Part shown: positions 2,187-15,819 of the stretch, piece by piece
Layout of the letters: every line of letters begins with the position of its first letter
Position numbering within the stretch: the stretch's first letter is position 1
Assembly (NCBI GenBank): GCA_016871535.1
Contig: VHCZ01000010.1
Span: forward strand, 1-55,746
Reading direction: 5' to 3'
Source: Verrucomicrobiota bacterium
Lineage (GTDB): Bacteria; Verrucomicrobiota; Verrucomicrobiia; Limisphaerales; SIBE01
DNA: 55,746 nucleotides
Notes under the pieces: generated by a model
What the model was told of the DNA's origin: nothing
Seen by the model: the letters and a program-made list of their open reading frames with translations, nothing else
The model's database searches: none
Translations under genes and position numbers: made by a program

Positions 2187-4763
2187 TCATTGTTTCAGGC
2201 GATAGAATTTCCGGCTTCCCGAGATGGCAATGGCCTTCCCGCTCCCGGCGCCAACGACGTCAGCCCAAGGCCCGGACACGTCGTCCGCCGCTTGCAGCAC
2301 AGCGCTGCCGGCCCATTCCAGCGTGATGTTCTTGCCATCGGATTTGACGCTGCTGATCTTCGGCCGCTCCGTTGGCGGCGGCGCTGTGACAGGGACAAAG
2401 GCGAAGTAATCCTGGTCTGAGTTTGAACCTGCCGTGATGGTCGTGCGAAGCGTGACGTTGCCACCCAGTTTGACGGTAATTGGATTCCCATCGGCATCCG
2501 TCATGCGGAAGATCTCAAGCGAATCCCAACCCGCCGTGGCGCGCCCGGGTTTGAAGTAACCCAGGACCTGCTTCACCTGCTGGGCATCGGCCTGGCCTTG
2601 GCCGGAGACGATTTGATCGACCCGGATGTTGATTGCCGCGCCGCCCGAGGAGAGATGCCCATACACTTCGTAGTCCTTGGCCGGGGTCGGGAAGTCGCGT
2701 GTGTAATTATACCATTCGCCTCCGTCGTTCCAGCCCAGCGTCCACCAAGTCGAGACCTGGAACAAGCCGCGCTCAGCGCCGGCTGAACCGTCTTTCTTGC
2801 CGGCAGCGATGCCGGTATCGGGCCGGTAGGCCTGGCCGGCGTTGTCATTGGTGTTCCAGTCGAAGCCTTTGTCATCCGCCGTGCCCTTGGCTTCGTAAGC
2901 ACCCCCCGGATAAGCTCCACTCAATCCGATGAGCTTCGGATCCTTGATGTATTTCCCGTGTTCGAAGTCCACATCCTCGGCCTCGATGAACAGTGTGCCG
3001 GTCACGAATGATTTCTCCGTAATGCGTGTGGTAAAGCCCCAGTTCACCGTGCGAGTTCCGGGCGGCGTGCTCGTGTCGGAGAAAGACAACGTGACGGTGT
3101 GTTTGGAGCCTTCCGCAAGTCCGGTGACCTGCGGCGCCGTCACGGTCGTCGTGTCGCCCGCTTTGGTTGCCGAAGCTTTGACGGCAGCGCCATCGAAGAC
3201 CATCGTTACCGAGGCCGGATTGATTTTGTTGACGCCGTCCACGATGACGGCTTTGAGATCAACGGCTGAAGGTTGGTCAAAACCGTTGACGGGCGGCGTG
3301 ACCGATGCGACGTACGCCGGCGTGGCGCCAGCCACCGGGCGATACGCTTTCAGCGCTCTGGCGTCGTTCGCATCATTGATTAAATGCCGCACGTTGTCCG
3401 TCGTGACGCTGTACCATTCGACGGCCGAGTCGCCGCCGCCTTCCTCGAAGATCATGCGGAACGGATAGATGCCGGCTTTTTCCACCACGAATGTGAAGTC
3501 CGTGTTGGCCACGCCGCGGCCGCCATCGAACTGGCCGAGCGTCGTGGAGAACCGGACGCGCGGATCCCCCGAAAAAGAAGTGACGCGGAATCCGTCATCG
3601 CTGTTCACGCCCAGGGTAACGGCGCCAGCGGGCAGGTCGAGGTAAGTGATGGCTTCAATGGAGTAATTGTCGTCGTTGCTGCCGTCGTTGGCCAGGCCCG
3701 GAGTGTTCTGCTCGGAGTTGTTCGTGAAGTTGTCTTGGCCTCCGGTGTTCCAGTAATCGATAACTTTGGTCTCGATGTAATAGGAATTTCCATAAACCTT
3801 TTCGGTGAACCGGGAGGTGTCGGCCTCGTTATCGCCGCGCAGACCGGCCAGTTGTTCCTCCGTCCAGGCTAAGTTGTTGGGTTGGCCGGTGGATTTCCAG
3901 GTGCGCACGAGGAATCCGCCCTTGCTCTTGTCCGCCGTGACGGTCGCCGTCGCCGGGATGATGTTGTAATTCGCCACGGTGAACGACCAGGTTTTGGTGA
4001 ATTTCGCTCCGGTGCTATCCGCGTAGTTCACGGTCGCGGAATGTGTGGAAAGCGGTTTGAAAATCGAAGCCGGTTGAAACTTCGCGGTCGTGGTTGCCCC
4101 ATCCGTGGTCACGGTTGGAGTTACCGTCGCGCCGTCCAACGAAAGGACGATCGAACCCGATGCGAGTTTGGTCGTGCCATCCACCAAAACGACCTGGATG
4201 GAAGAATCGAATCGCGCCGCCTTCACGCCGTCCGAAGGCACGAGCGCCGAGATGCTCAACGGCTGAGGTGTGGCTCCGACCACGGGTGATTCGGGAGGTC
4301 CCGGATCGGTTGGGGCCGGCAGGTTGGTGCGTTGCAGGATGAAGGCGTCGAGCGCATTGCCATCCTCGCGCTGGCTGATTCGGATCGTGTAAACGCCGGC
4401 TCTGGGGATGTTCCAAACAGCCGGCACTTCACCGCCATCACCACTGTTCACCTCCGGCGCGGCATAGCCATTCCATCCGATGGCCGTGTTTGCGTCGGCA
4501 TTATCATTGCGAAGCAGAGAGAAATCGGTCGTATTGGGATCCGGACTGTGCCGGTACCAAGCCGGCGACGAAACCTCCACAATCTGGACGTAGAAGGAAT
4601 CCGCGCCGCCATCCCAACCCACGTCGCGCATGTAGAGTTGGTATTCGCCCGGCGTATTGATCTGCACCTTGTAGTCGATATAGATTTCGGTCCCGACGAC
4701 GCTGGCATCCGCATTCCGGTTCTGTCCGCCGTCCGGGATGTTCTGGACGACTTTACCGCGCAT
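2187..4763 (-). CDS. Secreted CBM/Ig-like multidomain protein, N-terminus missing
   Basis: The 858-codon frame begins in the middle of a domain: there is no signal peptide, and MRGKVVQNIPDGGQNRN runs straight into a beta-rich module (about 20-120) of the kind found in verrucomicrobial cell-surface proteins. Ig-like repeats follow (about 140-240 and 490-580), with a PA14-like or sugar-binding segment between them. A CBM6-like module starting FIEAEDVDFEHGKY (about 590-780) is next. The last 55 residues form a GPWADVVG...KFYRLKQ tail shared with the protein at 13588. Proteins of this build usually have an export signal and often catalytic domains upstream. Here that part is lost at a junction near 4763, where a different gene begins out of frame. 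Binding of polysaccharide outside the cell is inferred; expression in this form is doubtful. Confidence 0.6.
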   Translation of the reverse strand: MRGKVVQNIPDGGQNRNADASVVGTEIYIDYKVQINTPGEYQLYMRDVGWDGGADSFYVQIVEVSSPAWYRHSPDPNTTDFSLLRNDNADANTAIGWNGYAAPEVNSGDGGEVPAVWNIPRAGVYTIRISQREDGNALDAFILQRTNLPAPTDPGPPESPVVGATPQPLSISALVPSDGVKAARFDSSIQVVLVDGTTKLASGSIVLSLDGATVTPTVTTDGATTTAKFQPASIFKPLSTHSATVNYADSTGAKFTKTWSFTVANYNIIPATATVTADKSKGGFLVRTWKSTGQPNNLAWTEEQLAGLRGDNEADTSRFTEKVYGNSYYIETKVIDYWNTGGQDNFTNNSEQNTPGLANDGSNDDNYSIEAITYLDLPAGAVTLGVNSDDGFRVTSFSGDPRVRFSTTLGQFDGGRGVANTDFTFVVEKAGIYPFRMIFEEGGGDSAVEWYSVTTDNVRHLINDANDARALKAYRPVAGATPAYVASVTPPVNGFDQPSAVDLKAVIVDGVNKINPASVTMVFDGAAVKASATKAGDTTTVTAPQVTGLAEGSKHTVTLSFSDTSTPPGTRTVNWGFTTRITEKSFVTGTLFIEAEDVDFEHGKYIKDPKLIGLSGAYPGGAYEAKGTADDKGFDWNTNDNAGQAYRPDTGIAAGKKDGSAGAERGLFQVSTWWTLGWNDGGEWYNYTRDFPTPAKDYEVYGHLSSGGAAINIRVDQIVSGQGQADAQQVKQVLGYFKPGRATAGWDSLEIFRMTDADGNPITVKLGGNVTLRTTITAGSNSDQDYFAFVPVTAPPPTERPKISSVKSDGKNITLEWAGSAVLQAADDVSGPWADVVGAGSGKAIAISGSRKFYRLKQ

Positions 4764-6481
4764 ATTCGAAAACGATTTTCAGCTTGCTCCAATTGGCCTT
4801 GCTCCAGGAGGACGAGGCCCAGATTCCCGTGCGCTTCGTGGTTGGTGGGATTGAGCCGCAGGACGGTTTCATATTCCCGTCGCGCATCCGGAAGCTTTTT
4901 CTGCTTTCGGAACAGGTAACCGAGCAGAAAGTGAGGTTCCTCCAGATCCGGCCGCAGCGCCACGGCGGTTTGGAGGCGATGGACGGCCTCTGCCTCGCGG
5001 CCCAATCCCAGAAACGCTTGCCCCAGACCGCGATGAGCTTCGGGGTCACTGGGTTTGGTCTGGACCCGCCACTCGTATTGACGGAGGCGAACGAGGACTG
5101 ACAGATCCTCTCGGCGCGGCAGGAGGACTTGAAACCAGAGCTCGGCCATCTCGTCCGTGGTCTCCGGGCCGTACGTCACTCGCCGAGGAGGCTGATGAGG
5201 ATTTCGCACATTGGCGGCGGAATTGTCGTAGGTGAATTCCATCGAGAGCGTGGTTCCTTTCGGAAGCGGAATTGGCTGCGCATACTGGTAATCGCTCTGC
5301 CAGTTGAAATCCCAGTTTCTAATCAGAAGCAGGGGCTGTTTCGTGCCGTTGGCAAGCGTGGCGATCCCGCGCATTTCTTTCGCCAGGTAATGGGCATGAG
5401 GCAGCACGGCGAGCACCTCGACATCGACCGGAAGCATAAAACTGTCCTGCGCCCGATAGCTCGATTCGCCGGCAGGAATATCGAGGGCGCGAGACGTGAG
5501 CAGGATTTTGAACGGCGTGTGCGTTGCGGGGCGCTCGGTCCAATGAAACCCAACCGTGGCCTGGATGGACTCGGGTTTGCCCGTGGGCCGCAGGTGAAGC
5601 TGCAACACCAGGTCGGTGCCTTTATCCAAACGCCAGGCCAGCCCGTCCTGTTCGCGTGTGGGGAGGCGGCCTGGCGTCCAACTCAGGAAATGACCTTCGG
5701 GCATCTGTGCGGTCAGAGGCGTGATCATGAAACTGAAACCGGGTTCCGTATCCTGTTCATGGAGCCGCCGCGATTCCCGAGTGGGATCCACCTTGAGGAA
5801 AGCGTGGTGGACGGCTTTCAAAGTGCCCGCAAGAAACTCGACCGATTCGACGTATTTGGTCTCGGAAATCGGGAGCGGAATGACGAAGTTCCGATAAACG
5901 TCTTTTCCATCCGCTCGGAGGGTGTAGGGCTGAGGCATGGTCACCACCAGGTCCGGGGTCCCCAACTGCCAGCCTTCCGTCCAGGTTGGCGTCGGCGGCA
6001 AATCCGCCGCAGCGCCTTCGCGCGCTCCTTCACTCACCCACTGCTGGATCATGCCAATCTGGTCCGCGCTCAATCGTCGCTCGTGAGCAAACGCCACGAC
6101 TTCGGGTTCAGGCAGCCAGGGGGGCATGAGGCGTCTGGCCGTGACTTCGGCGATTTGTTTGGCCCGTTTCTTCACCTCGGCGTAGCTCAGCAGACTGAAC
6201 GGCGCCGCCTGGTCAGGTCGATGGCACGCAGCGCATTTCGCGAAGACGATTGGGGCGATGTCTTTCGTGAACGTCAACGTGCCGGGCGGCCGAAGCCGAT
6301 AGGTCCTGGCTGGCGTGGAATTTCTGCTTCGCGGCCAAAGCAGGATCCCCAGGCAAATCGAGGTGAGGATCAGGACCAGAGCCAGTCTGGCGGGGAATTT
6401 GCGCCGGGAGCAGTTTGGGTTTCCAGGGTTGGGACGGTTCGCCGAGTCTGGCGCCCGCGCTCGCTGGCCCGGCTTTTTCAT
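4448..6481 (-). CDS. Cytochrome c / copper monooxygenase-like TPR protein, C-terminus broken
   Basis: Residues about 31-50 form an N-terminal membrane anchor. A c-type heme site CAACH (C83, C86, H87) sits in a PSCyt-like segment containing PPWLPEP. The central part resembles the ascorbate-dependent type II copper monooxygenase fold, with candidate copper ligands in VHHAFLKVD, LQLHLRP and LPHAHYLAKE. TPR repeats follow (about 440-570: HRGLGQAFLGLGREAEAVHR and two more). Such proteins are known from Acidobacteria and Verrucomicrobia; their substrate is unknown. The third TPR stops being TPR-like after about residue 573 (AENRFR), and the last 105 codons are an out-of-frame reading of the next gene, so the real C-terminus is lost near 4763. 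The ATG at 6481 is chosen because it gives the anchor. Upstream extension is shadow of the divergent TIR gene. Confidence 0.65.
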   Translation of the reverse strand: MKKPGQRARAPDSANRPNPGNPNCSRRKFPARLALVLILTSICLGILLWPRSRNSTPARTYRLRPPGTLTFTKDIAPIVFAKCAACHRPDQAAPFSLLSYAEVKKRAKQIAEVTARRLMPPWLPEPEVVAFAHERRLSADQIGMIQQWVSEGAREGAAADLPPTPTWTEGWQLGTPDLVVTMPQPYTLRADGKDVYRNFVIPLPISETKYVESVEFLAGTLKAVHHAFLKVDPTRESRRLHEQDTEPGFSFMITPLTAQMPEGHFLSWTPGRLPTREQDGLAWRLDKGTDLVLQLHLRPTGKPESIQATVGFHWTERPATHTPFKILLTSRALDIPAGESSYRAQDSFMLPVDVEVLAVLPHAHYLAKEMRGIATLANGTKQPLLLIRNWDFNWQSDYQYAQPIPLPKGTTLSMEFTYDNSAANVRNPHQPPRRVTYGPETTDEMAELWFQVLLPRREDLSVLVRLRQYEWRVQTKPSDPEAHRGLGQAFLGLGREAEAVHRLQTAVALRPDLEEPHFLLGYLFRKQKKLPDARREYETVLRLNPTNHEAHGNLGLVLLEQGQLEQAENRFRICAVKSSRTSRTADRTGMRMPASSGPKSISTTRCRSIRRANTNSTCATWVGMAARIPSTSRLWRFRRRLGTGTVRIPIRPISLCFAMIMPTQTRPSDGMAMPRRR

Positions 6482-6646
6482 GGGCAGCAAGTTTTGTGGC
6501 TTTTGGCTGCGGGCCTCAACCAAAAACTGAATTGCCTTGTAAAGCGAACCCTGTTTGCGGTTAATGACCGCCGGTGAATCTGGCCGTAAATTCAGGTCCC
6601 GCGCAATCAACCGTTCGTGAAATGACGTTTTTCTTGAAGGCATCCC

Positions 6647-8296
6647 ATGGCTACTGACGGAAGCCCGACCAGCCATCCCTCTGAGTCCAATTCTCGTGCC
6701 TCGCCGGTGAGGACCGCGGGGGCCAGCGCCGCCGAAGCGATCCGCGTGGTGCTGCTCTACAAGCGGCACCTGCCCGCCGACCAATACGTGGTGGAACTCT
6801 TGGAGAAGGAACTGGGCACGCACGGGTACCAGGTCTGGATCGACCGTCATCTGACGCTCGGCGTTGAATGGGCCAAGGAGATTGAACAGAAAATCCGCGA
6901 CGCCCACGCGGTCATCGGTTTGCTTTCCGAGGACTCGTCCCGCAGCGAAATGATCGCGTTTGAAATCGAGAACGCTCATGAATCCTCGCAGCAACAGCAA
7001 GGCCGGCCGCGCTTGCTCCCGATTCGTGTGAATTTTACCGGGCCGCTTCCGGAACCGCTCTCCGGCATTCTGGATCCGATTCAATACGTGCTCTGGGAAG
7101 ATCCCCGCGATGATCAGCGGGTCGTCTCCGAAGTGCTCGCGGCGTTGAAGGGTTTGACGCCGTCCCAGCCGCCGGTGCGAATCGTCCCGACCAAGGGCTT
7201 GCGCCTGATGGCGCGGCCCGCGATTCAACCCCGACCGGTCGCGGTCGCTAAAGCTGCTGCTCCCACTATGCCGCTTCCTCTGGAACCCATCGGCGGCGCC
7301 GTTCCTCTGAACTCGGAGTTTTACGTGATTCGCTCCGCGGACGGGGAATTGCGCACGGCGCTCACCCGTTACGACAGCATCATCCTCATCAAAGGCGGAC
7401 GCCAGATCGGCAAGACTTCCATGCTGGCGCGCGGCCTGCAATTCGCCCGCGAACGAGGCGCCAAGGTCGCGCTGACAGATTTTCAAAAGTTCAACGCCTC
7501 GAATCTGGAGACGGTCGGGAACTTTTACTTGAGCCTGGCCGAATCGCTCGCGGACCAACTGGAGGTAGGAACGCTCCCCTCTGACGTCTGGGATGAACGC
7601 CGCGGGCCGAACGTCAATTTCGAGCGTTACCTCCGGCGCGAGGTGCTGGCCAAGCTCAACGCCCCGCTCATCTGGGGGCTGGACGAGGTGGACCGGCTGT
7701 TTGTGTGCTCCTACGGCAGTGAGGTGTTCGGATTGTTCCGGTCCTGGCACAACGAACGCGCGCTCGATCCGTCCGGGCCGTGGGCGGGCCTGACCCTCGC
7801 GATCGCTTACGCCACCGAGGCGCACCTGTTCATCACGGACATGAATCAATCGCCGTTCAACATCGGCACGCGCCTGGTCCTGGAAGATTTCACGGGCGAA
7901 CAAGTGGCGGATCTGAATCGCCGGAACGAAAGCCCGCTCAAAGACCCGGGCGAACTGGATCGATTCCGGCAGTTAGTGGACGGACATCCGTTCCTGGTGC
8001 GGCGCGGATTGCACGAGATGGCCACGAAGAAGACTGACATCGCCGCCTTTGAAGCGCAGGCGGACCGGGATGAGGGCATCTTCGGCGATCACCTGCGGCG
8101 GATTCTGGTTCTGCTGGCGAGAGACCCCGCGCTCACGGAAGTCGTCAAAGGCTTGCTCCGCGACCAGCCGTGTCCGACGCCGGAAAGCTTCTATCGGCTG
8201 CGGAGCGCGGGCGTGATCACCGGCGGCTCACAAGCCGAATCCAAGTTCCGCTGCCAGCTTTACGCCACGTATTTGAAGCGGCATTTGCTGGCGTGA
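6647..8296 (+). CDS. TIR domain-AAA_35-type ATPase protein
   Basis: The N-terminal half (about 30-170) is a TIR domain. It has [13 protein letters not shown] at strand [10 protein letters not shown] at box 2 (64-72), and S100-x-M-x3-E106 where NAD-cleaving TIR enzymes carry S-x-W-C-x-x-E, so E106 is the candidate catalytic glutamate. A proline/alanine-rich linker (about 172-215) leads to a P-loop ATPase of the AAA_35 kind, with Walker [11 protein letters not shown] (249-258) and Walker [11 protein letters not shown] (341-350). The C-terminal 100 residues are helical, possibly a winged helix. TIR-ATPase proteins are often phage-defence or signalling proteins that destroy or convert NAD+ once the ATPase senses a trigger. 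That role is inferred here. It stands alone, divergent from the cytochrome/TPR gene (165-bp gap), with no obvious partner gene. Confidence 0.8.
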
Positions 8297-8496: not shown

Positions 8497-9984
8497 CTAG
8501 AGTTCCCAACCTCTTCGATACTCGCGTTTGACAAACTGGGCGGCTTCCGGCGCGTTGGTGGCTTCCATGTGGGGGCCGTCCCAATCCAGTTTCTTGCCCA
8601 CGCCCACGCGCATCGCCACGCAGCCCAGCAGGATGATTTCGGTGAGGTAGGCTGCGATGTCGAAGTTTGAGTAAGCGGGCGGGCCGCCTCGAATCATGCT
8701 CAGCCATTCTGCCTTCTGCCGCTGGTCATCTCCGCCCGGGCCCTCATTGCGCGCGATCGTTTGCGGGACGGTTTTGCAGGCTTCGTGTTGATTCCCCGGG
8801 GTGTATTTGTTCTCGGAATCACACATGACAAAGAACCGCGAACCGTAATCGTCCGGTGAAAACACCTTCCCTTTCTCGCCCAAAATCAAACAGCCACTGG
8901 CCGGCAAACTGCCGTACACATCGACAATCTCTTTCGTAATCTCCTCGGAGGGACGAAGCGGTTTGATGGATTTGTCCTGGGGACTGCCGTCGTACCACCA
9001 GAACTTGAGCGGCGGCAGGCCTTCGCGCTCTGGAAACTCGAACCGAAGGCGCGAGGTCTTGGGATAGGTGTCCGCGTGCATCTCGGAAATCTCTTCGCAC
9101 TCGACGACATTGGGATAACCCAGTTTGAGCGCGCGAAACGGCATGTTAACGGTGTGGCAAGCCATGTCTCCCAGCGCCCCGGTCCCGAAATCCTGATAAC
9201 CGCGCCACGCGAACGGATGGTAGCCCTTGTTGTAGGGCCGCATGGGCGCCGGGCCAATCCAGACGTCCCAATCCAAATTCTCAGGCACGGGCAGCGCGTC
9301 CACGGGGCGCTCAATGCCTTGCGGCCAGATGGGACGATTGCTCCAGACGTGAAGTTGCAGCGGTTTTCCAATGACGCCGCCCTGAATGACTTCCACCGCC
9401 CGGCGCAGGCCGGTGCCGGCGCTGCCTTGATTCCCCATTTGCGTGGCCAGGTTCTTTTCCTTCGCAAGCTGCCGGAGATAACGCGCCTCATAGACCGAAT
9501 GCACGAGCGGCTTCTGCACATAAACGTGCTTGCCCATCTTCATCGCCATGGACGCCGCGATCGCGTGATGATGGTCCGGCGTGGAAATCGTCACCGCGTC
9601 AATCTTGTCGCCGATCTCCGACAGCATATCGCGGTAGTCCTGATACTTTCGGGCGTTGGGATACGTCCGGCCTTGTCGCCGGCGCGCGTTGCCGGAGGCG
9701 TCGCTGCTCGGCGCATTGGATGCGGTTCGCGATTCGAGTGTCTTGAGGTCCACATCGCACAACGCATAGATATTTTCCCCAAGCTCCGCGCAATTGTCGG
9801 TGTCGCTGGCCCCTTTGCCTCCGGCGCCGATGGCGGCGATGTTGAGTTTGCTGTTGAGGTTCTGTCCGCGAAGGAAGTATGGCCCGGAGAGCGCCGCCGC
9901 GCCAATCACGAGGGAAGATTTGGTGAGGAAGTTTCGACGGCTGATGGGAAAGGCCGTCCCGCTGGGAAGGGATGAATTAGGCAT
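8497..9984 (-). CDS. Tat-exported Gfo/Idh/MocA family oxidoreductase
   Basis: This 495-residue protein begins with a twin-arginine signal (SRRNFLTKSSLVIGAAAL, about 15-32), so it is predicted to be exported folded. A Rossmann fold follows with AAIGAGGKGASD as the dinucleotide loop. The segment DAVTISTPDHHHA...MKMGKHVYVQKPL carries the EKP-like motif of the family, with Q in place of the usual glutamate. The C-terminal part has the usual alpha/beta domain. Tat-exported Gfo/Idh proteins are abundant in Verrucomicrobia and Planctomycetes and are thought to act on sugars or cyclitols in the periplasm. The substrate cannot be read from sequence. The gene is monocistronic. The ATG at 9984 is well placed for the signal. 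Confidence 0.85.
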   Translation of the reverse strand: MPNSSLPSGTAFPISRRNFLTKSSLVIGAAALSGPYFLRGQNLNSKLNIAAIGAGGKGASDTDNCAELGENIYALCDVDLKTLESRTASNAPSSDASGNARRRQGRTYPNARKYQDYRDMLSEIGDKIDAVTISTPDHHHAIAASMAMKMGKHVYVQKPLVHSVYEARYLRQLAKEKNLATQMGNQGSAGTGLRRAVEVIQGGVIGKPLQLHVWSNRPIWPQGIERPVDALPVPENLDWDVWIGPAPMRPYNKGYHPFAWRGYQDFGTGALGDMACHTVNMPFRALKLGYPNVVECEEISEMHADTYPKTSRLRFEFPEREGLPPLKFWWYDGSPQDKSIKPLRPSEEITKEIVDVYGSLPASGCLILGEKGKVFSPDDYGSRFFVMCDSENKYTPGNQHEACKTVPQTIARNEGPGGDDQRQKAEWLSMIRGGPPAYSNFDIAAYLTEIILLGCVAMRVGVGKKLDWDGPHMEATNAPEAAQFVKREYRRGWEL

Positions 9985-10122
9985 GGGTGTTTCCTACGCC
10001 CAACGCGTCTTGCGGACAAGGCAATTCTCCGACACGGGCCTGGCTCGGAGCAGTTCGCAGAGAAGATTAAGATCAAGATTAGGATTACGATTCAGCGAGT
10101 GCGAGCTATGCCTCAGTTGATG

Positions 10123-10155
10123 GTGGGGCGAGGCTCCGCAGGAGCGTCGCCCCAC
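10123..10155. repeat. Short hairpin (family A minimal form)
   Basis: GTGGGGCGAGGCTCC pairs with GGAGCGTCGCCCCAC across a 3-nt GCA loop, with one mismatch. It lies in the 250-bp gap between the divergent oxidoreductase and tgt genes. Just upstream (10058-10095) is an AT-rich GATTAAGAT...GATTAGGATTACGATT tract related to 13365-13391. Confidence 0.8.
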
Positions 10156-10234
10156 GTCGTGAATTGAGGGGATCCAGTGCGAGGCGCTTTTGGCTTCCTT
10201 TTTTCGAGCTTCTCGGCGTTCCTTCGCGGCATTC

Positions 10235-11389
10235 ATGTTTGAACTGCTGAAAACGGATCCGCGTTCCAAGGCACGCCTGGGCCGGTTCACCACTCCGCAC
10301 GGAATCATCGAAACACCGGTGTTCATGCCCGTCGGCACCCAAGGGAGCGTCAAAGCGCTGGACCCGCGCGAGCTGCTGGAGATGGGCACCCAGATCATTC
10401 TGGGCAATACCTATCATCTGAGCATTCGTCCGGGGCTGGACATCATCCAGGCTGGCGGCGGGCTTCATCAGTTCATCCACTGGCCGCATCCGATCCTGAC
10501 GGACAGCGGCGGCTTCCAGGTTTTCAGCCTCGCGAAGATTCGGAAGATTCTCGCGCACGGCGTTGAGTTTCGGTCGCACGTGGATGGCTCATTGCTGAGC
10601 CTTGGCCCCAAGGAAACGATGGCGATCCAACGCGCGCTCGGCTCGGACATCGCCATGACGTTCGACGAATGTCCGCCGCATAATTGTTCGCCGCGGGAAG
10701 CTCGCGCGGCAGTGGAGCGAACGATTCGCTGGGCGCAAGAATGCCGGGAACAACCCCGCGCCTCCGGCCAGCAAGTGTTCGGCATCGTGCAGGGCGGCTC
10801 GAATCCGGCCCTGCGGGAGGAATGCGCCAAAGCAATTGTAGCGCTGGGCTTTGACGGATACGCCATCGGCGGAGTCAGCGTCGGCGAACCGGAGCCGGAG
10901 ATGTTCGCCGCCGTGGAAATGACCGAGCCGTTCTTGCCGGCGGACCGCCCGCGCTACGCCATGGGCCTTGGAACGCCCGCTCAGATGGTGGAACTGGTCG
11001 CGCGCGGGGTGGACATGTTCGACTGCGTCTTGCCGACGCGCGTGGCTCGCAACGGGACGGCCTTTACGACAAAGGGCACCATCAGCATCAAGGCCGGCTA
11101 CAACAAAGCCGATTGGCGTCCGATTGAAGAAGGATGCGTCTGTTACGCCTGCCGGAATTTCTCACGCGCGTATCTCCGGCACTTGCTGAACGTGAGGGAG
11201 ATTCTGGGGCTTCGCATGCTCAGTGTTCACAATTCCCACATGTATCTCCAATTGATGAGCGATATCCGTGCTCATCTGACGGCGGGGACTTTCTCGGAGT
11301 TCCGGGAACGATTCGTCGCCGGCTACGTGCCGTCGCAAAAGGTGCTGTCCGCGCGCCTGCTCAGCCGGACCGCGGAGGAAGAACGGTGA
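10235..11389 (+). CDS. tgt: Queuine/preQ1 tRNA-ribosyltransferase (tRNA-guanine transglycosylase)
   Basis: Tgt swaps guanine 34 of GUN-anticodon tRNAs for preQ1, a step in queuosine synthesis. The protein has all expected landmarks: DSGGFQ with D90, the general acid/base; FDCVLPTR with D263, the nucleophile; GIVQGG (183-188) in the base pocket; and zinc ligands C301, C303, C306 and H332. Its 384 residues match the family. The ATG at 10235 is chosen because MFELLKTDP is the conserved start; an in-frame ATG at 10190 adds 15 unrelated residues. No queC/D/E/F or queA gene is next to it, so the rest of the pathway lies elsewhere. Confidence 0.95.
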   Translation: MFELLKTDPRSKARLGRFTTPHGIIETPVFMPVGTQGSVKALDPRELLEMGTQIILGNTYHLSIRPGLDIIQAGGGLHQFIHWPHPILTDSGGFQVFSLAKIRKILAHGVEFRSHVDGSLLSLGPKETMAIQRALGSDIAMTFDECPPHNCSPREARAAVERTIRWAQECREQPRASGQQVFGIVQGGSNPALREECAKAIVALGFDGYAIGGVSVGEPEPEMFAAVEMTEPFLPADRPRYAMGLGTPAQMVELVARGVDMFDCVLPTRVARNGTAFTTKGTISIKAGYNKADWRPIEEGCVCYACRNFSRAYLRHLLNVREILGLRMLSVHNSHMYLQLMSDIRAHLTAGTFSEFRERFVAGYVPSQKVLSARLLSRTAEEER

Positions 11390-11547
11390 GTCCAGGAATG
11401 ATCAAATGCCGAATGCACGAAATGCGGCGGCCTGCGGGCGTGGGTTTCGAGTTTAGTCATTTGGAATTCTTTGGTCATTCGGATTTCGGCATTCGCCTTT
11501 CCTCGGCGGGCGCATCTCACCCTCTTGCACTGCTGTGAAATCGGTTG

Positions 11548-11790
11548 GTTCCCCCTCCCCCTCCCCCCGCTGGGAGAGAATTCTCCCAAGCAAAACTTCG
11601 CGCATTGAACCCCTGAACAGATTTTTTAACCACGGATTTCGCGGATGAAGAAACGCTCTTATCCGTGTTATCCGCGTAATCCGTGGTTGAATCAGGTTCG
11701 TGGGGAGGGCAACCGACGAAGTTTGGACGAACGCAGACGACGCGATTTCCTCACCCAGCGGGAGCGGACCAAGGTGAGGGAGAAGCCCCG
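11548..11790. repeat. Nested inverted repeats downstream of tgt
   Basis: The 512-bp gap 11390-11901 has no credible gene. It holds an outer pair (CCCCGCTGGGAGAG near 11565 against CTCACCCAGCGGGAG near 11750) enclosing a clean pair at 11628-11688 (AACCACGGATTTCGCGGAT against ATCCGCGTAATCCGTGGTT). The arrangement resembles the stacked palindromes at 40339-40469. Confidence 0.65.
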
Positions 11791-11901
11791 GCACTCGCCG
11801 AAGGCGTTCATTTTTGAAGTGAAGCCTGCAAGAAAGTGAAATGCTCCTTCCTCGGCGCGCTACGCTCTTCCCATTTGTCCCGCGGGTGCTAAACTGAGGT
11901 C

Positions 11902-13302
11902 ATGAAGCCGACCACTGATTCCTGCGCCTGCCCGGGCTTTCGCAACGTCAGTTTTTCCCGACGCCACCTGTTGAAGGTTGGCGGACTCGGCCTGTTGGGC
12001 CTGACCATGCCGCGCTTGCTGCGGGCCGCGGAGTCGCAGAAGAAAGGGCCGCTGGCGAAGGCGAAATCAGTGATCTTCCTCTATCAATTCGGCGGGCCGA
12101 GCCACATCGACATGTTCGACATGAAGCCGGAGGCGCCGGAAGCCATTCGCGGATCCCACAAACCCGCTGCAACGAAAGCGGACGGCATCGCGATCAACGA
12201 GCGGCTGCCCAGGCTCGCGAAGGTCATGGATAAGGTGACCCTGATCCGGTCGGTGCATCACCACATGAAGAATCACAATCCGGCTTCGTACTACGCGCTC
12301 ACCGGCCATGCGCCGCCGGTGGATGACATCACCCTGCGCGATTCGCCGGAGTTGTTCCCCGCCCCCGGTTCGGTGATCGATAAACTGGCGCCCGCCGAAG
12401 GAGCGATTCCGACTTTTGTCGCGTTGCCGTGGGTGATTGGCGACGGGACGATTACGCCCGGCCAGCACGCCAGTTTTCTGGGCAAAGTTCACGATCCGCT
12501 GTTGATCACGCGTGATCCGAGCAAACCCGACTTCAAGCTGCCGGAATTGAACCTACCCGCTTCGGTCACGTACGAGCGTTTGACGCACCGCCGCTCCATT
12601 CAAAAGATCATCGACGGCCAGTCGCGCCTTCTCGAATACTCGGCCAAGGCGCGCGGGATGGACGCGTATTATGAAAAGGCCCTGGCCATGCTCGATTCCC
12701 CAAAGCTGCGCGAAGTGTTCAATTTGTCCGCGGAGCCGGATGCGGTTCGTGACAGCTACGGTCGCACCGCGTACGGGCAAAGCTGCCTGCTGGCGCGGCG
12801 GTTGGTGGAAGTGGGCACGAAGTTCGTCACGGTCCATTTTTCGGCCAACATTGGCGGAGACGTGGGCAGCGGGTGGGATACGCACGGCAACAACGGCAAG
12901 AAAATGTTCCCGATCCTGGAGAAATATCATTTGCCGATGACGGACCAGACCTTGCCGACTTTGCTGGAGGAACTCGACCAGCGCGGCTTGCTGGACACCA
13001 CGCTCGTGGTTTGGATGGGCGAATTTGGGCGCACGCCTAAGATCAACGAGAAAGCCAGCCGCGACCATTGGCCGGACTGTTACACGGTGTTGCTGGCGGG
13101 CGGCGGCGTGAAACGCGGATTCGTCTATGGCGCTTCCAACAAGACGGCGTCGTATCCGGCGGAGAACCCCGTTCGGCCTGAAGATCTGGCCGCGACGATT
13201 TACTATTTGCTGGGAATCGACCCGCACACGGAAGTCTATGGCATCGATAAGCGTCCGCTTCCGATCTCCGAAGGCACGCCGGTGACCGCGGTCATCGCGT
13301 GA
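11902..13302 (+). CDS. DUF1501 domain protein, Tat-exported (sulfatase-like fold)
   Basis: The 466-residue protein has a twin-arginine leader (SRRHLLKVGGLGLLGLTMP, about 20-38) and then the DUF1501 domain. Family landmarks are FLYQFGGPSHIDMFDMKP, HHHMKNHNPASYYALTG, SGWDTHGNN and LVVWMGEFGRTPKIN followed by HWPDCYTVLLAGGGV. The family is related to alkaline phosphatase/sulfatase superfamily proteins and is expanded in Planctomycetes and Verrucomicrobia. It is usually paired with a DUF1549/DUF1553 cytochrome-containing gene. That partner is absent here, and this copy stands alone. The biochemical role is not established for the family. Confidence 0.9.
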   Translation: MKPTTDSCACPGFRNVSFSRRHLLKVGGLGLLGLTMPRLLRAAESQKKGPLAKAKSVIFLYQFGGPSHIDMFDMKPEAPEAIRGSHKPAATKADGIAINERLPRLAKVMDKVTLIRSVHHHMKNHNPASYYALTGHAPPVDDITLRDSPELFPAPGSVIDKLAPAEGAIPTFVALPWVIGDGTITPGQHASFLGKVHDPLLITRDPSKPDFKLPELNLPASVTYERLTHRRSIQKIIDGQSRLLEYSAKARGMDAYYEKALAMLDSPKLREVFNLSAEPDAVRDSYGRTAYGQSCLLARRLVEVGTKFVTVHFSANIGGDVGSGWDTHGNNGKKMFPILEKYHLPMTDQTLPTLLEELDQRGLLDTTLVVWMGEFGRTPKINEKASRDHWPDCYTVLLAGGGVKRGFVYGASNKTASYPAENPVRPEDLAATIYYLLGIDPHTEVYGIDKRPLPISEGTPVTAVIA

Positions 13303-13587
13303 AACCTTGACCGCCAACTCCCTGGCTTAATCTCCCGCGCAACTCCTACTCTTCATCATAATCTTAATCCTAATCCCTAAGGGTAGGATTACGAGTTATC
13401 AAGCGGGAGGGGCGACGGCCACGACTTCACTGCAACCCGATAGCATTCTACAGCATCTCCCTTTTTCCTTGTCTTTTAGGCGGGGTTTGGTTCTATACCA
13501 GCGTTCCTAATCCGAGTGTCAGCGTTCACCAATGCATACTGGCCCAAAATTGTCGGTCGGAATCAACAACCAAGAGGAGTTTTGCCT
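13303..13587. other. Intergenic region with AATCCTA hairpin and likely leader of the LamG gene
   Basis: TAATCCTA (13365-13372) pairs with TAGGATTA (13384-13391), inside an AT-rich tract that contrasts with the surrounding GC-rich DNA. A purine-rich AGAGGAG lies 8 bases before the ATG at 13588 and decides that start. No promoter could be assigned with confidence. Confidence 0.5.
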
Positions 13588-15819
13588 ATGTCAAACATCA
13601 ACCGTTCTAACGGAGTAATTCCCCCTGCACGTCGCCTCGCGCTGATGTTAGGCGCTAGCCTTGTGTTTTTGCCCTGCGCGCTCAACGCGCAGGAGATCCT
13701 GTTTCAAGAAGGCTTCGAAACCGAGGGCGAAGGCACTCGCTACGTCACGGAAGGGAGCGATGTGTATGAAGTGCCCCGGATTCGGTCGGAGATCGGCAAT
13801 CAGGATCAGGCGGGCCCGATTTACTGGGCGCGAAAATCGAAAGTCTCCATCGTGGGCGTGCCTGGGCCTACCCCGGCTCGCAGAGCGATCATGTATTGGC
13901 ACCACAGCATCGAGTCGTCCCTGGTGACGCCGGCTTTTCTGGCGCTGTTCGAGTCAACCGTCAAATGGCTCGCGAACAATAAAGCCGGAGCAACGGTGAT
14001 GTTTTCGCCCGCGCCCAATGGGCCTGGGGACGAAGTTCTTCGCGACCACCTGATGGCGAAGGGCTATAAAATCATCGAGGACGACGGCGCGGATTTGCCG
14101 AAGACGCCGAACTTCGATGTCGTCATCAAATCCAGCAACGGCAACACTGGCAATCCGAGCCGTTTCGCGCAATACGCTGCTCCGATGCTGACGTACAATG
14201 GCCCCGACCACGACGATGAACTCGTCAGCACCATCGGCGCCACCCAGGCGGATCTGGACCTGGGCGACATTACCATCGCCGCCGCAGGCCACGCCGCGGC
14301 GGGTGGCAAGACGGGTTCCTTCAAAGCGGTAACAGGCCCATCGTCCTTCGACAGTATTGGTAGCGATATTCCGGTTGGGGCGGTGACACTCGCGACTTTC
14401 GAACGCGCTTCCGCGGCGGATCCCAATGTAAAGCAGAAGGTGCCCTTTATCGTGCTGGTGGAAAGCGGCGCCAACGGCGGCTCGGTCTATGGCGGCGGGC
14501 CCTTTGGCGGTCACGAGGGCAACGACTTCTTTGCCGGATCCGCTCTGAATAAGTTTGCCACTGACGTCGCGGTCAAGACGTTGACCTTTACCAAACCCAT
14601 CAATACTGCCGGCAAGCCCAAACTCAAGCTCACGATCGCGCTCGCCGCGACTTATCTGGACTTTGAAACAGGCGATTATTTCAAAGTGTTCATTGATCCA
14701 GATGGCGACGGTCCGCTCGAGATCGACACGAACGCGCCGCTGATTCACTTCACCGCCCCGAGCGCAAACGACAAATACTTCAATGACGTCACGACCAATG
14801 CCAAGAAGCCGACTCGGCTCGGCCTGAAGTTCGAGGATGTGACTTACGACATTCCAGGCAATCCTTCAAAGATCGGCATCCGCATCGAAGCGTTGACGAC
14901 CTGGTGGAACGAAATTGTCGGGTTTGACAACATCCGCGTCACCTCAGGAGACCCAGCACCAACTTCACCCAGCGTTGGAAACCTGACGGGGTTGCTCGCG
15001 TATTGGCGCATGGATGAGTCGAGTGGCGACGTGGTCGCTGACTCCAGTGGCAAGGGGAACAACGGAAAAATCGTCAACAATACGGCCGGTTCGTGGGTGA
15101 AGGATGCCGTGCGCGGCAACGTCTATAAGGCCACCGGCACGAACGTCATCAACTTCGGAACCATCGTGCCCGCCATGACTCTGACGAGCGACTTCACGTG
15201 GTCCCTGTGGGTCAAATCGGACATGACCGGCACAGCTTCCGCGCCCAATAACAATATTGTTTTCGGTAATCGTTACAATGCGTCAGGGGCAGACTTCTCG
15301 CCGCGTGAGTTCATCAAATTTACTCCGAGTAACTTTGAATGGCATTTCAACGCGGCCCCCCAAAACATCAACTACACCGACTTCGTCACGAACGTGTGGG
15401 CGCACCACCTCGTGGTTAAAAAAGGCAACACGCTGACCTATTACCTGGACGGCAAACAGTCCGGCACGCCCACAACGATCACCGGCACGCCAAAAAACCC
15501 GCAGCCTCTGTACCTCGGCGGGCAGGGAACGCAAGAGCGCTGGCGGGGTTTGGCCGATGAAGTGGCCATCTTTGATCGTGCGTTGTCGCCAGCGGAAGCG
15601 CAGCAAGTCTATGACCTCGGCAAAGCAGGTTCGGCTTTGGCGCCGCCTCCGCTGAAACTCGGTTTCGAGCGGACGAATACGGGCCTCAAACTCACCTTCG
15701 AAGGCACGCTGCAATCCGCAGACGCGTTGACAGGCCCCTGGGCAGACGTGGCCGGAGCGAAGAGTCCCGCGGAGATCGCGTTCTCCGGTAACGCCAAATT
15801 CTATCGCATCAAGAAGTAA
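13588..15819 (+). CDS. Secreted LamG/concanavalin-like domain protein
   Basis: The protein has 743 residues. A signal peptide covers about 1-32 (RRLALMLGASLVFLPCALNAQ). The next 450 residues are mostly beta-rich and unassigned, with a ThuA/flavodoxin-like stretch early on (TVKWLANNKAGATVMFSPAP). A LamG jelly roll runs from about 475 to 690 (LAYWRMDESSGDVVADSSGK, TWSLWVKSD, WAHHLVVKKGNTLTYYLDGK, DEVAIFDRALSPAEAQQVYD). The last 50 residues form the GPWADVAG...AKFYRIKK tail also seen at the end of the 2187-4763 protein. The ATG at 13588 has a good Shine-Dalgarno (AGAGGAG); a longer frame from 13516 lacks one. It is monocistronic with its own terminator. A surface-attachment or matrix role is inferred only. 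Confidence 0.75.
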   Translation: MSNINRSNGVIPPARRLALMLGASLVFLPCALNAQEILFQEGFETEGEGTRYVTEGSDVYEVPRIRSEIGNQDQAGPIYWARKSKVSIVGVPGPTPARRAIMYWHHSIESSLVTPAFLALFESTVKWLANNKAGATVMFSPAPNGPGDEVLRDHLMAKGYKIIEDDGADLPKTPNFDVVIKSSNGNTGNPSRFAQYAAPMLTYNGPDHDDELVSTIGATQADLDLGDITIAAAGHAAAGGKTGSFKAVTGPSSFDSIGSDIPVGAVTLATFERASAADPNVKQKVPFIVLVESGANGGSVYGGGPFGGHEGNDFFAGSALNKFATDVAVKTLTFTKPINTAGKPKLKLTIALAATYLDFETGDYFKVFIDPDGDGPLEIDTNAPLIHFTAPSANDKYFNDVTTNAKKPTRLGLKFEDVTYDIPGNPSKIGIRIEALTTWWNEIVGFDNIRVTSGDPAPTSPSVGNLTGLLAYWRMDESSGDVVADSSGKGNNGKIVNNTAGSWVKDAVRGNVYKATGTNVINFGTIVPAMTLTSDFTWSLWVKSDMTGTASAPNNNIVFGNRYNASGADFSPREFIKFTPSNFEWHFNAAPQNINYTDFVTNVWAHHLVVKKGNTLTYYLDGKQSGTPTTITGTPKNPQPLYLGGQGTQERWRGLADEVAIFDRALSPAEAQQVYDLGKAGSALAPPPLKLGFERTNTGLKLTFEGTLQSADALTGPWADVAGAKSPAEIAFSGNAKFYRIKK

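Follow-up and report, generated by a model that had tools for sequence, protein, structure and literature searches.

The window, a 55,746-nucleotide stretch of contig VHCZ01000010.1 from a Verrucomicrobiota genome (GCA_016871535.1), contains a plus-strand gene at 6647–8296 that begins with ATG and encodes a 549-amino acid protein combining a TIR domain with an AAA_35 ATPase, as an earlier note on this DNA had claimed. Profile searches placed TIR_2 at residues 40–152 (6764–7102; Pfam E 6.6e-19; about residues 33–168 in the structural model) and AAA_35 at residues 217–544 (7295–8278; E 2.2e-71), and both matches exceeded the Pfam cut-offs. The two domains are joined by a predicted disordered linker at about residues 174–214 (7166–7288), where pLDDT fell below 50 at 174–178 and 193–214. 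The Walker A (GGRQIGKT, residues 250–257, 7394–7417) and Walker B (WGLDE with D346-E347, residues 343–347, 7673–7687) motifs are intact in the alignment, as the note had described. The best PADLOC matches were the TIR parts of the Aga_TIR (7.9e-10) and SAVED_TIR (2.6e-7) models, an NCBIfam search of the protein returned 0 families, and a sequence search of the full protein against solved structures found no match (best E 0.2).

The gene is flanked by a minus-strand TPR-repeat gene (4448–6646) and a minus-strand GFO/IDH/MocA oxidoreductase gene (8497–9984, by Pfam), the latter also found beside the L037 orthologue, with a queuine tRNA-ribosyltransferase further out. The ORF of the TPR-repeat gene extends to 7903 and overlaps the TIR-AAA_35 gene; the best stretches of all 12 of its Pfam matches lie outside the overlap, at its residues 940–1047. 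L037 is the nearest relative, with 94% protein identity across residues 30–549. Nucleotide differences between the two genes fall mostly at third codon positions (50/19/158 at positions 1/2/3), and of 548 codons 157 carry synonymous and 46 non-synonymous changes. Judged from this comparison, the ORF at 6647–8296 is a real gene under purifying selection.

The TIR domain of the structural model matched the SPARTA TIR (Z 17.8, rmsd 2.4 over 135 residues) and the SARM1 TIR (Z 16.7; both VIA-align), and a profile of 36 TIR domains matched Cat1 (E 1.9e-4) and SARM1 among solved structures. Matches to ThsB models of Thoeris were weak (E 0.03 and 0.057), below those to Aga_TIR and SAVED_TIR, and no ThsA family was among the PADLOC matches at 1e-10 in the flanks of 15 solo relatives. 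The TIR profile aligned the column of E106 (codon 6962–6964, in SEMIAFE106IENA) on the Glu of SDWCWDE in Cat1, and we take this conserved Glu column to be the catalytic position in TIR domains. Among 38 aligned E-type proteins (the class defined below), the column holds Glu in 30 and Gln in seven, and one (L075) has no TIR; Glu is kept in all 10 relatives of at least 63% identity. The invariant acidic residue is E101, which is Glu in 37/37 TIR rows. The proposal that E106 is the NADase glutamate was supported by its conserved column and weakened by Gln in 7/37 TIR relatives, a substitution that argues against taking NADase activity for granted across the family. The window protein itself may cleave NAD through E106. 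The Gln rows are L045, L046, L047, L049, L053, L054, and L070, of which all except the unassigned L054 were placed in genomes of family f21, and Gln at 106 was found in a marine family. Five of these loci (L046, L047, L049, L053, and L070) have the same upstream gene, probably of an ApbC/NUBPL-like family.

Many loci of relatives have a second AAA_35 gene close by. We assigned AAA_35 proteins to two classes, E (effector) and S, by domain length and C-terminal tail: E domains are 328–337 aa and are followed by no more than 8 aa, and S domains are 339–405 aa. In a tree of 133 domains (identical sequences removed, quick method without bootstrap, long branches flagged by the tool), one branch with SH-aLRT 100 separated 71 E from 62 S domains. 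The window protein is E-type and carries the signature of that class at residues 390–407 (7814–7867), beginning TE. T390, E391, W367, and H482 are near-invariant in E, as are A390, P392, W293, and F344 in S, which mostly reads A-T-P at 390–392. The Walker A lysine is present in 100% of both classes and the Walker B Glu in 92% of E and 98% of S. Class by architecture equalled class by profile for 82/82 E and 83/83 S proteins (165/165), an agreement in which most sequences had helped build the class profiles and some contigs appear under two locus ids.

The earlier note had set the AAA_35 ATPase apart from STAND and NB-ARC ATPases, a distinction that the structural models do not support. The AlphaFold (AF2) model of the window protein (pLDDT 85, pTM 0.79) had the plant TIR-NLR RPP1 as its top Foldseek match (E 5.9e-9) at a whole-chain rmsd of 20.9, which indicates that the two domains are arranged differently. 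The ATPase alone matched 2qen (Z 21.6), CED-4 (Z 17.9, rmsd 4.1 over 290 residues), NRC4 (Z 17.1, rmsd 4.0 over 288), and Apaf-1 (Z 15.4; all VIA-align), and the ATPase of an S-type model (L060; pLDDT 79, pTM 0.55) matched 2qen (Z 20.4), NRC4 (16.7), and RPP1 (16.6). Given the matches to 2qen, CED-4, and NRC4, we read AAA_35 as a STAND-type ATPase; in the predicted models both classes match the CED-4/NLR (STAND) fold. The G-x-P motif, which we take to be a STAND signature, lies at residues 446–450 (7982–7996) and is kept in all 133 aligned domains, with G446, P448, and L450 in 71/71 E and 62/62 S. AAA_35 stops a few residues short of the C-terminus of the window protein, leaving no sensor or repeat region, and the protein does not combine effector, ATPase, and sensor on one chain in the manner of Avs or TIR-NLR proteins. 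The sensor-effector-like build that had been noted was supported.

The two classes are joined to different modules. N-terminal partners of E-type ATPases are mostly TIR, and otherwise kinase-TIR, kinase, trypsin-TIR, or BTAD; a weak cyclase match ahead of the TIR in E-type proteins scored 17.6 and 17.8 bits, below the cut-off of 21.9. Two cyanobacterial E-type proteins (L078 and L090) have N-terminal regions of ~120–160 aa without a TIR and with no Pfam match, and cyanobacterial genomes carry several E and several S genes each. At the Armatimonadota locus L075, a BTAD-AAA_35 gene (9272–11101, plus strand) is convergent with an AAA_35-WD40 gene (11098–14433, minus strand). By its sequence, the L075 protein suggests that a transcription-factor domain can occupy the effector position.

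Among 83 S-type proteins, duplicates kept, the modules were WD40 (22), TPR (13), FHA (12), DUF2092 (5), receiver (4), HisKA-receiver (2), and HAMP (1), with none recognised in 24; L062 has a PEGA module. Two receiver-type S loci adjoin hybrid kinases and a third is near an NtrC-like regulator. Among non-identical S proteins in which 100 aa or more follow AAA_35, a membrane helix was predicted ~25 aa after the domain in 4/4 DUF2092, 14/22 WD40, and 9/17 unassigned proteins, and in none of the TPR (0/10) or FHA (0/12) proteins. The flanks of this helix are more positively charged towards AAA_35 in 21/27 proteins and less so in 1/27, a bias that predicts AAA_35 to be inside in 21 proteins and outside in one. 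At an equal threshold, a hydrophobic stretch precedes AAA_35 in 5/82 E proteins.

We surveyed 293 genomes of the window's order, leaving out matches below 46 bits, and found both classes in 35 genomes, E only in one, S only in two, and neither in 255 (Fisher p 9e-42, with genomes that share ancestry and are not phylogenetically independent). G174 is among the 35, a TIR-AAA_35 gene having been found there. The E-only genome, G127, has an S fragment, and the S-only genomes, G007 and G183, are 60% and 75% complete. When 13 linked genomes were dropped, with G174 counted as S only and the partial matches G003:C82 (two), G010:C100, G127:C60, G173:C405:38, G173:C522, and G000:C2 removed beforehand, the counts were 21/1/3/255 (p 2e-27). 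Within the order, 16/73 S places are within 6 kb of an E, linkage calls being limited where contig ends are near the gene. In the window's family the S genes are mostly on other contigs than the E gene; in G160, G201, and G052, contig ends are 13 kb or more away from both E and S.

These counts bear on whether the protein acts alone. A self-contained single-gene TIR-ATPase defence, in which the protein's own ATPase domain senses the trigger, would fit the complete ATPase and the lack of an adjacent partner in the window, and the S-type genes that co-occur with it could have a separate function. We consider it quite improbable, as so little sequence follows AAA_35 that no sensor region is left, and S-type genes are present in 35/36 order genomes with E. 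The single-gene defence reading of the earlier note was lowered on the same two grounds, the position of AAA_35 at the C-terminus and the existence of S-type partners in trans. The statement that no partner gene is present holds for the flanks and fails for the genome, where S genes lie elsewhere.

Alongside its single E gene, the window genome has three S genes and two S remnants. Two of the S genes encode AAA_35-TM-WD40 (contig C19) and AAA_35-TM-DUF2092 (contig C381), with a predicted helix just after AAA_35. The third (contig C38, L111, 5208–6539, plus strand) is a stand-alone S ATPase in which no FHA part was recognised, and its neighbours match those of FHA-S loci in two relatives. The remnant on contig C2 (L114, 5547–7157, plus strand), likely a degraded sensor copy, is a HisKA-receiver-AAA_35 protein whose AAA_35 domain is mostly missing downstream of Walker B, and the second remnant is an S fragment on contig C41. 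As lower bounds (at most seven candidates per genome were scored), E:S counts for unlinked genes in the window's family are 1:3 in the window genome, 1:5 in G001, and 1:4 in G003. The ratio is mostly 1:1 in f21, and E exceeds S in G010 and G068, so a many-to-one network is not general.

Pairing of the classes extends beyond the order. Across 387 genomes of the phylum, E was found in the window's genome, G554, and G628, with S adjacent in the latter two, and no S-type match of at least 60 bits occurred without E among the at most five candidates scored per genome. The best excluded match was a partial one of 58.8 bits in a 519-aa frame of G678. Several phylum genomes encode proteins of ~520 aa with part-AAA_35 matches below 60 bits, which stand outside the counts and are perhaps a separate family. 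Outside the order, both classes occurred in 17/17 genomes, all chosen for holding a relative. Adjacent E and S genes are found on contigs labelled Verrucomicrobia, Acidobacteria, Armatimonadetes, and Cyanobacteria. The 31 linked E-S pairs co-diverge within groups (r 0.93 for 15 pairs, 0.95 for 16 pairs; 0/2000 permutations as high), a mirror-tree correlation that also reflects species descent.

Alternatively, E and S could be related proteins that work independently and co-occur because an ancestral pair was inherited or transferred as a unit. In favour of this, E and S are often linked beyond the window's family, the genomes counted are related by descent, and, of six families showing both states, four (f7, f9, f48, and f49) have the linked form, so that the unlinked case is tested by f21 and f36 alone. 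Against this, 21 of the 22 E genomes without a linked S have S elsewhere, in eight families, and, except for G183, those genomes of f21 and f36 that were listed without E have no S either; f21 itself contains the exceptional genomes G127 (E and an S fragment only) and G183 (S only). We regard independence as the least probable of the readings.

On balance we lean slightly toward TIR-AAA_35 as a soluble effector of TIR-STAND type that separate S-type STAND sensors activate in trans, and put it no higher because just two of the six both-state families test the unlinked case. The E protein, a TIR enzyme domain, flexible linker, and STAND ATPase lacking a sensor of its own, would be the output half. 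The input halves would be separate S-type AAA_35 proteins joined to a sensor or signalling module: a WD40 propeller or DUF2092, frequently preceded by a predicted membrane helix, or TPR, PEGA, FHA, receiver, or HAMP. A signal would release the S-type ATPase, which would then bind the E-type ATPase in trans via the shared fold in an ATP-dependent assembly, a step we infer from the two intact ATPase classes, their co-occurrence, and their co-divergence. By analogy with TIR-NLRs and SPARTA, this assembly would bring TIR domains together, and, once activated, the TIR may use E106 to cleave NAD or to produce a nucleotide signal. The single effector of the window genome would then answer to two predicted membrane receptors that seem intact, AAA_35-TM-WD40 and AAA_35-TM-DUF2092, as well as to the stand-alone S ATPase. 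Binding, ATP-driven assembly, TIR activation, and NAD cleavage are thus proposed steps.

Whether this output serves defence was addressed through the gene neighbourhood. From the flanks of the 15 solo relatives 128 proteins were chosen, using genes from a simple ORF caller, and 117 were scanned, with 11 left out as lying at contig ends, short, or overlapping. The commonest neighbour Pfam families (best 25 of 134) include Fe-S scaffold, ATP synthase, sulfatase, and sigma-factor families, with 3–4 proteins each. PADLOC at 1e-10 matched seven families among the 117 neighbours, one protein each and with no control set. In this set, neighbours of the solo relatives are mostly housekeeping, which for solo genes is largely the situation that the note had named as counting against its idea. 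A defence island was likewise set aside, the seven single-member families amounting to no obvious islands, which is not a statistical depletion. Given the housekeeping neighbours and two-component inputs, stress or envelope signalling is argued for at least as much as phage defence. With Gln106 in a marine family and mostly housekeeping neighbours, phage defence is no more than a candidate role for TIR-AAA_35.

The same E-S pairing could have an output other than NAD destruction, with the TIR as a scaffold or weak signal enzyme in everyday stress-response or developmental signalling that takes its inputs from two-component systems and Ser/Thr phosphorylation. The Gln found at the catalytic column in 7/37 relatives would fit such a role, as would the receiver, HisKA, FHA, and HAMP inputs, the two-component genes nearby, the housekeeping neighbours, and the E-type protein with BTAD in place of TIR. 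Set against it are E106 in 30/37 relatives, including all 10 at 63% identity or more, and the kinase and trypsin effectors of other E-type proteins, which are conflict-system effectors according to PMC8195603; we rate this output as unlikely.

In plants, sensor NLRs depend on helper NLRs, and many sensors share few helpers. Whether bacteria have a counterpart of these sensor-helper networks is, to our knowledge, an open question. As in the plant NRC and TIR-NLR RPP1 networks, the E protein combines a STAND fold with an N-terminal effector, and several unlinked sensors accompany few effectors per genome. The system differs in being bacterial, with sensors that carry WD40, DUF2092, FHA, or receiver modules rather than LRRs and several of which are predicted membrane proteins. 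By predicted fold, the E-S system would belong to the STAND superfamily and may work like a sensor-helper network, in which the sensors would depend on the helper. We see an even chance that it is a bacterial sensor-helper STAND network, in which several unlinked STAND sensors (among them predicted transmembrane receptors, FHA proteins, and response regulators) would rely in trans on the same cytosolic TIR-STAND helper and signals from the envelope, kinases, and two-component systems would meet in a single TIR output, each half having its own class of a duplicated ATPase, already split in the pairs of Verrucomicrobia, Acidobacteria, Armatimonadota, and Cyanobacteria.

Avs and bacterial NACHT proteins have sensor and effector on one chain. 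They resemble the E protein in combining a STAND ATPase with an effector, and Avs3 and Avs5 chains were matched by the models, whereas the window gene has no sensor region. Another described arrangement is nSTAND2, a two-gene operon of two STAND NTPases, one effector-fused and one partner with eroded NTP motifs, with GT4 or HEPN the most common effectors (PMC8195603). The E-S system likewise has two proteins, each with a STAND NTPase and one effector-fused; in contrast to nSTAND2, Walker motifs are kept in both E and S, TIR is the predominant effector, and the partners are often unlinked. The same source names an Npun2340/2341 family in the MNS clade of STAND proteins. The name suggests two neighbouring Nostoc genes, like the cyanobacterial E and S, and AAA_35 possibly belongs to that family, a lead from the name alone.

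No description of an E-S AAA_35 system was found in a literature search that had most subscription journals outside it. The same search returned no literature on PF14516, titles that look unrelated among the matches listed for AAA_35 with TIR, and plant or fungal papers only for helper, sensor, and STAND. If the pairing is true, bacteria have a modular version of such networks, in which a common ATPase fold connects even two-component regulators and predicted membrane receptors to a TIR effector, and solo TIR-ATPase genes should not be read as self-contained defence systems.

Two observations concern other copies of the gene. In G003, contig C82 carries two broken tandem TIR-AAA_35 copies with stops and frame breaks (L129, 300–3060), and an intact copy is on another contig. 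TIR-AAA_35 proteins at L038, L041, L057, and L058, on contigs titled Akkermansia muciniphila, are 59–73% identical to the window protein and group with other Verrucomicrobia; the titles of L038 and L041 may be wrong, and these contigs may be those of G005 and G060 of the window's order.
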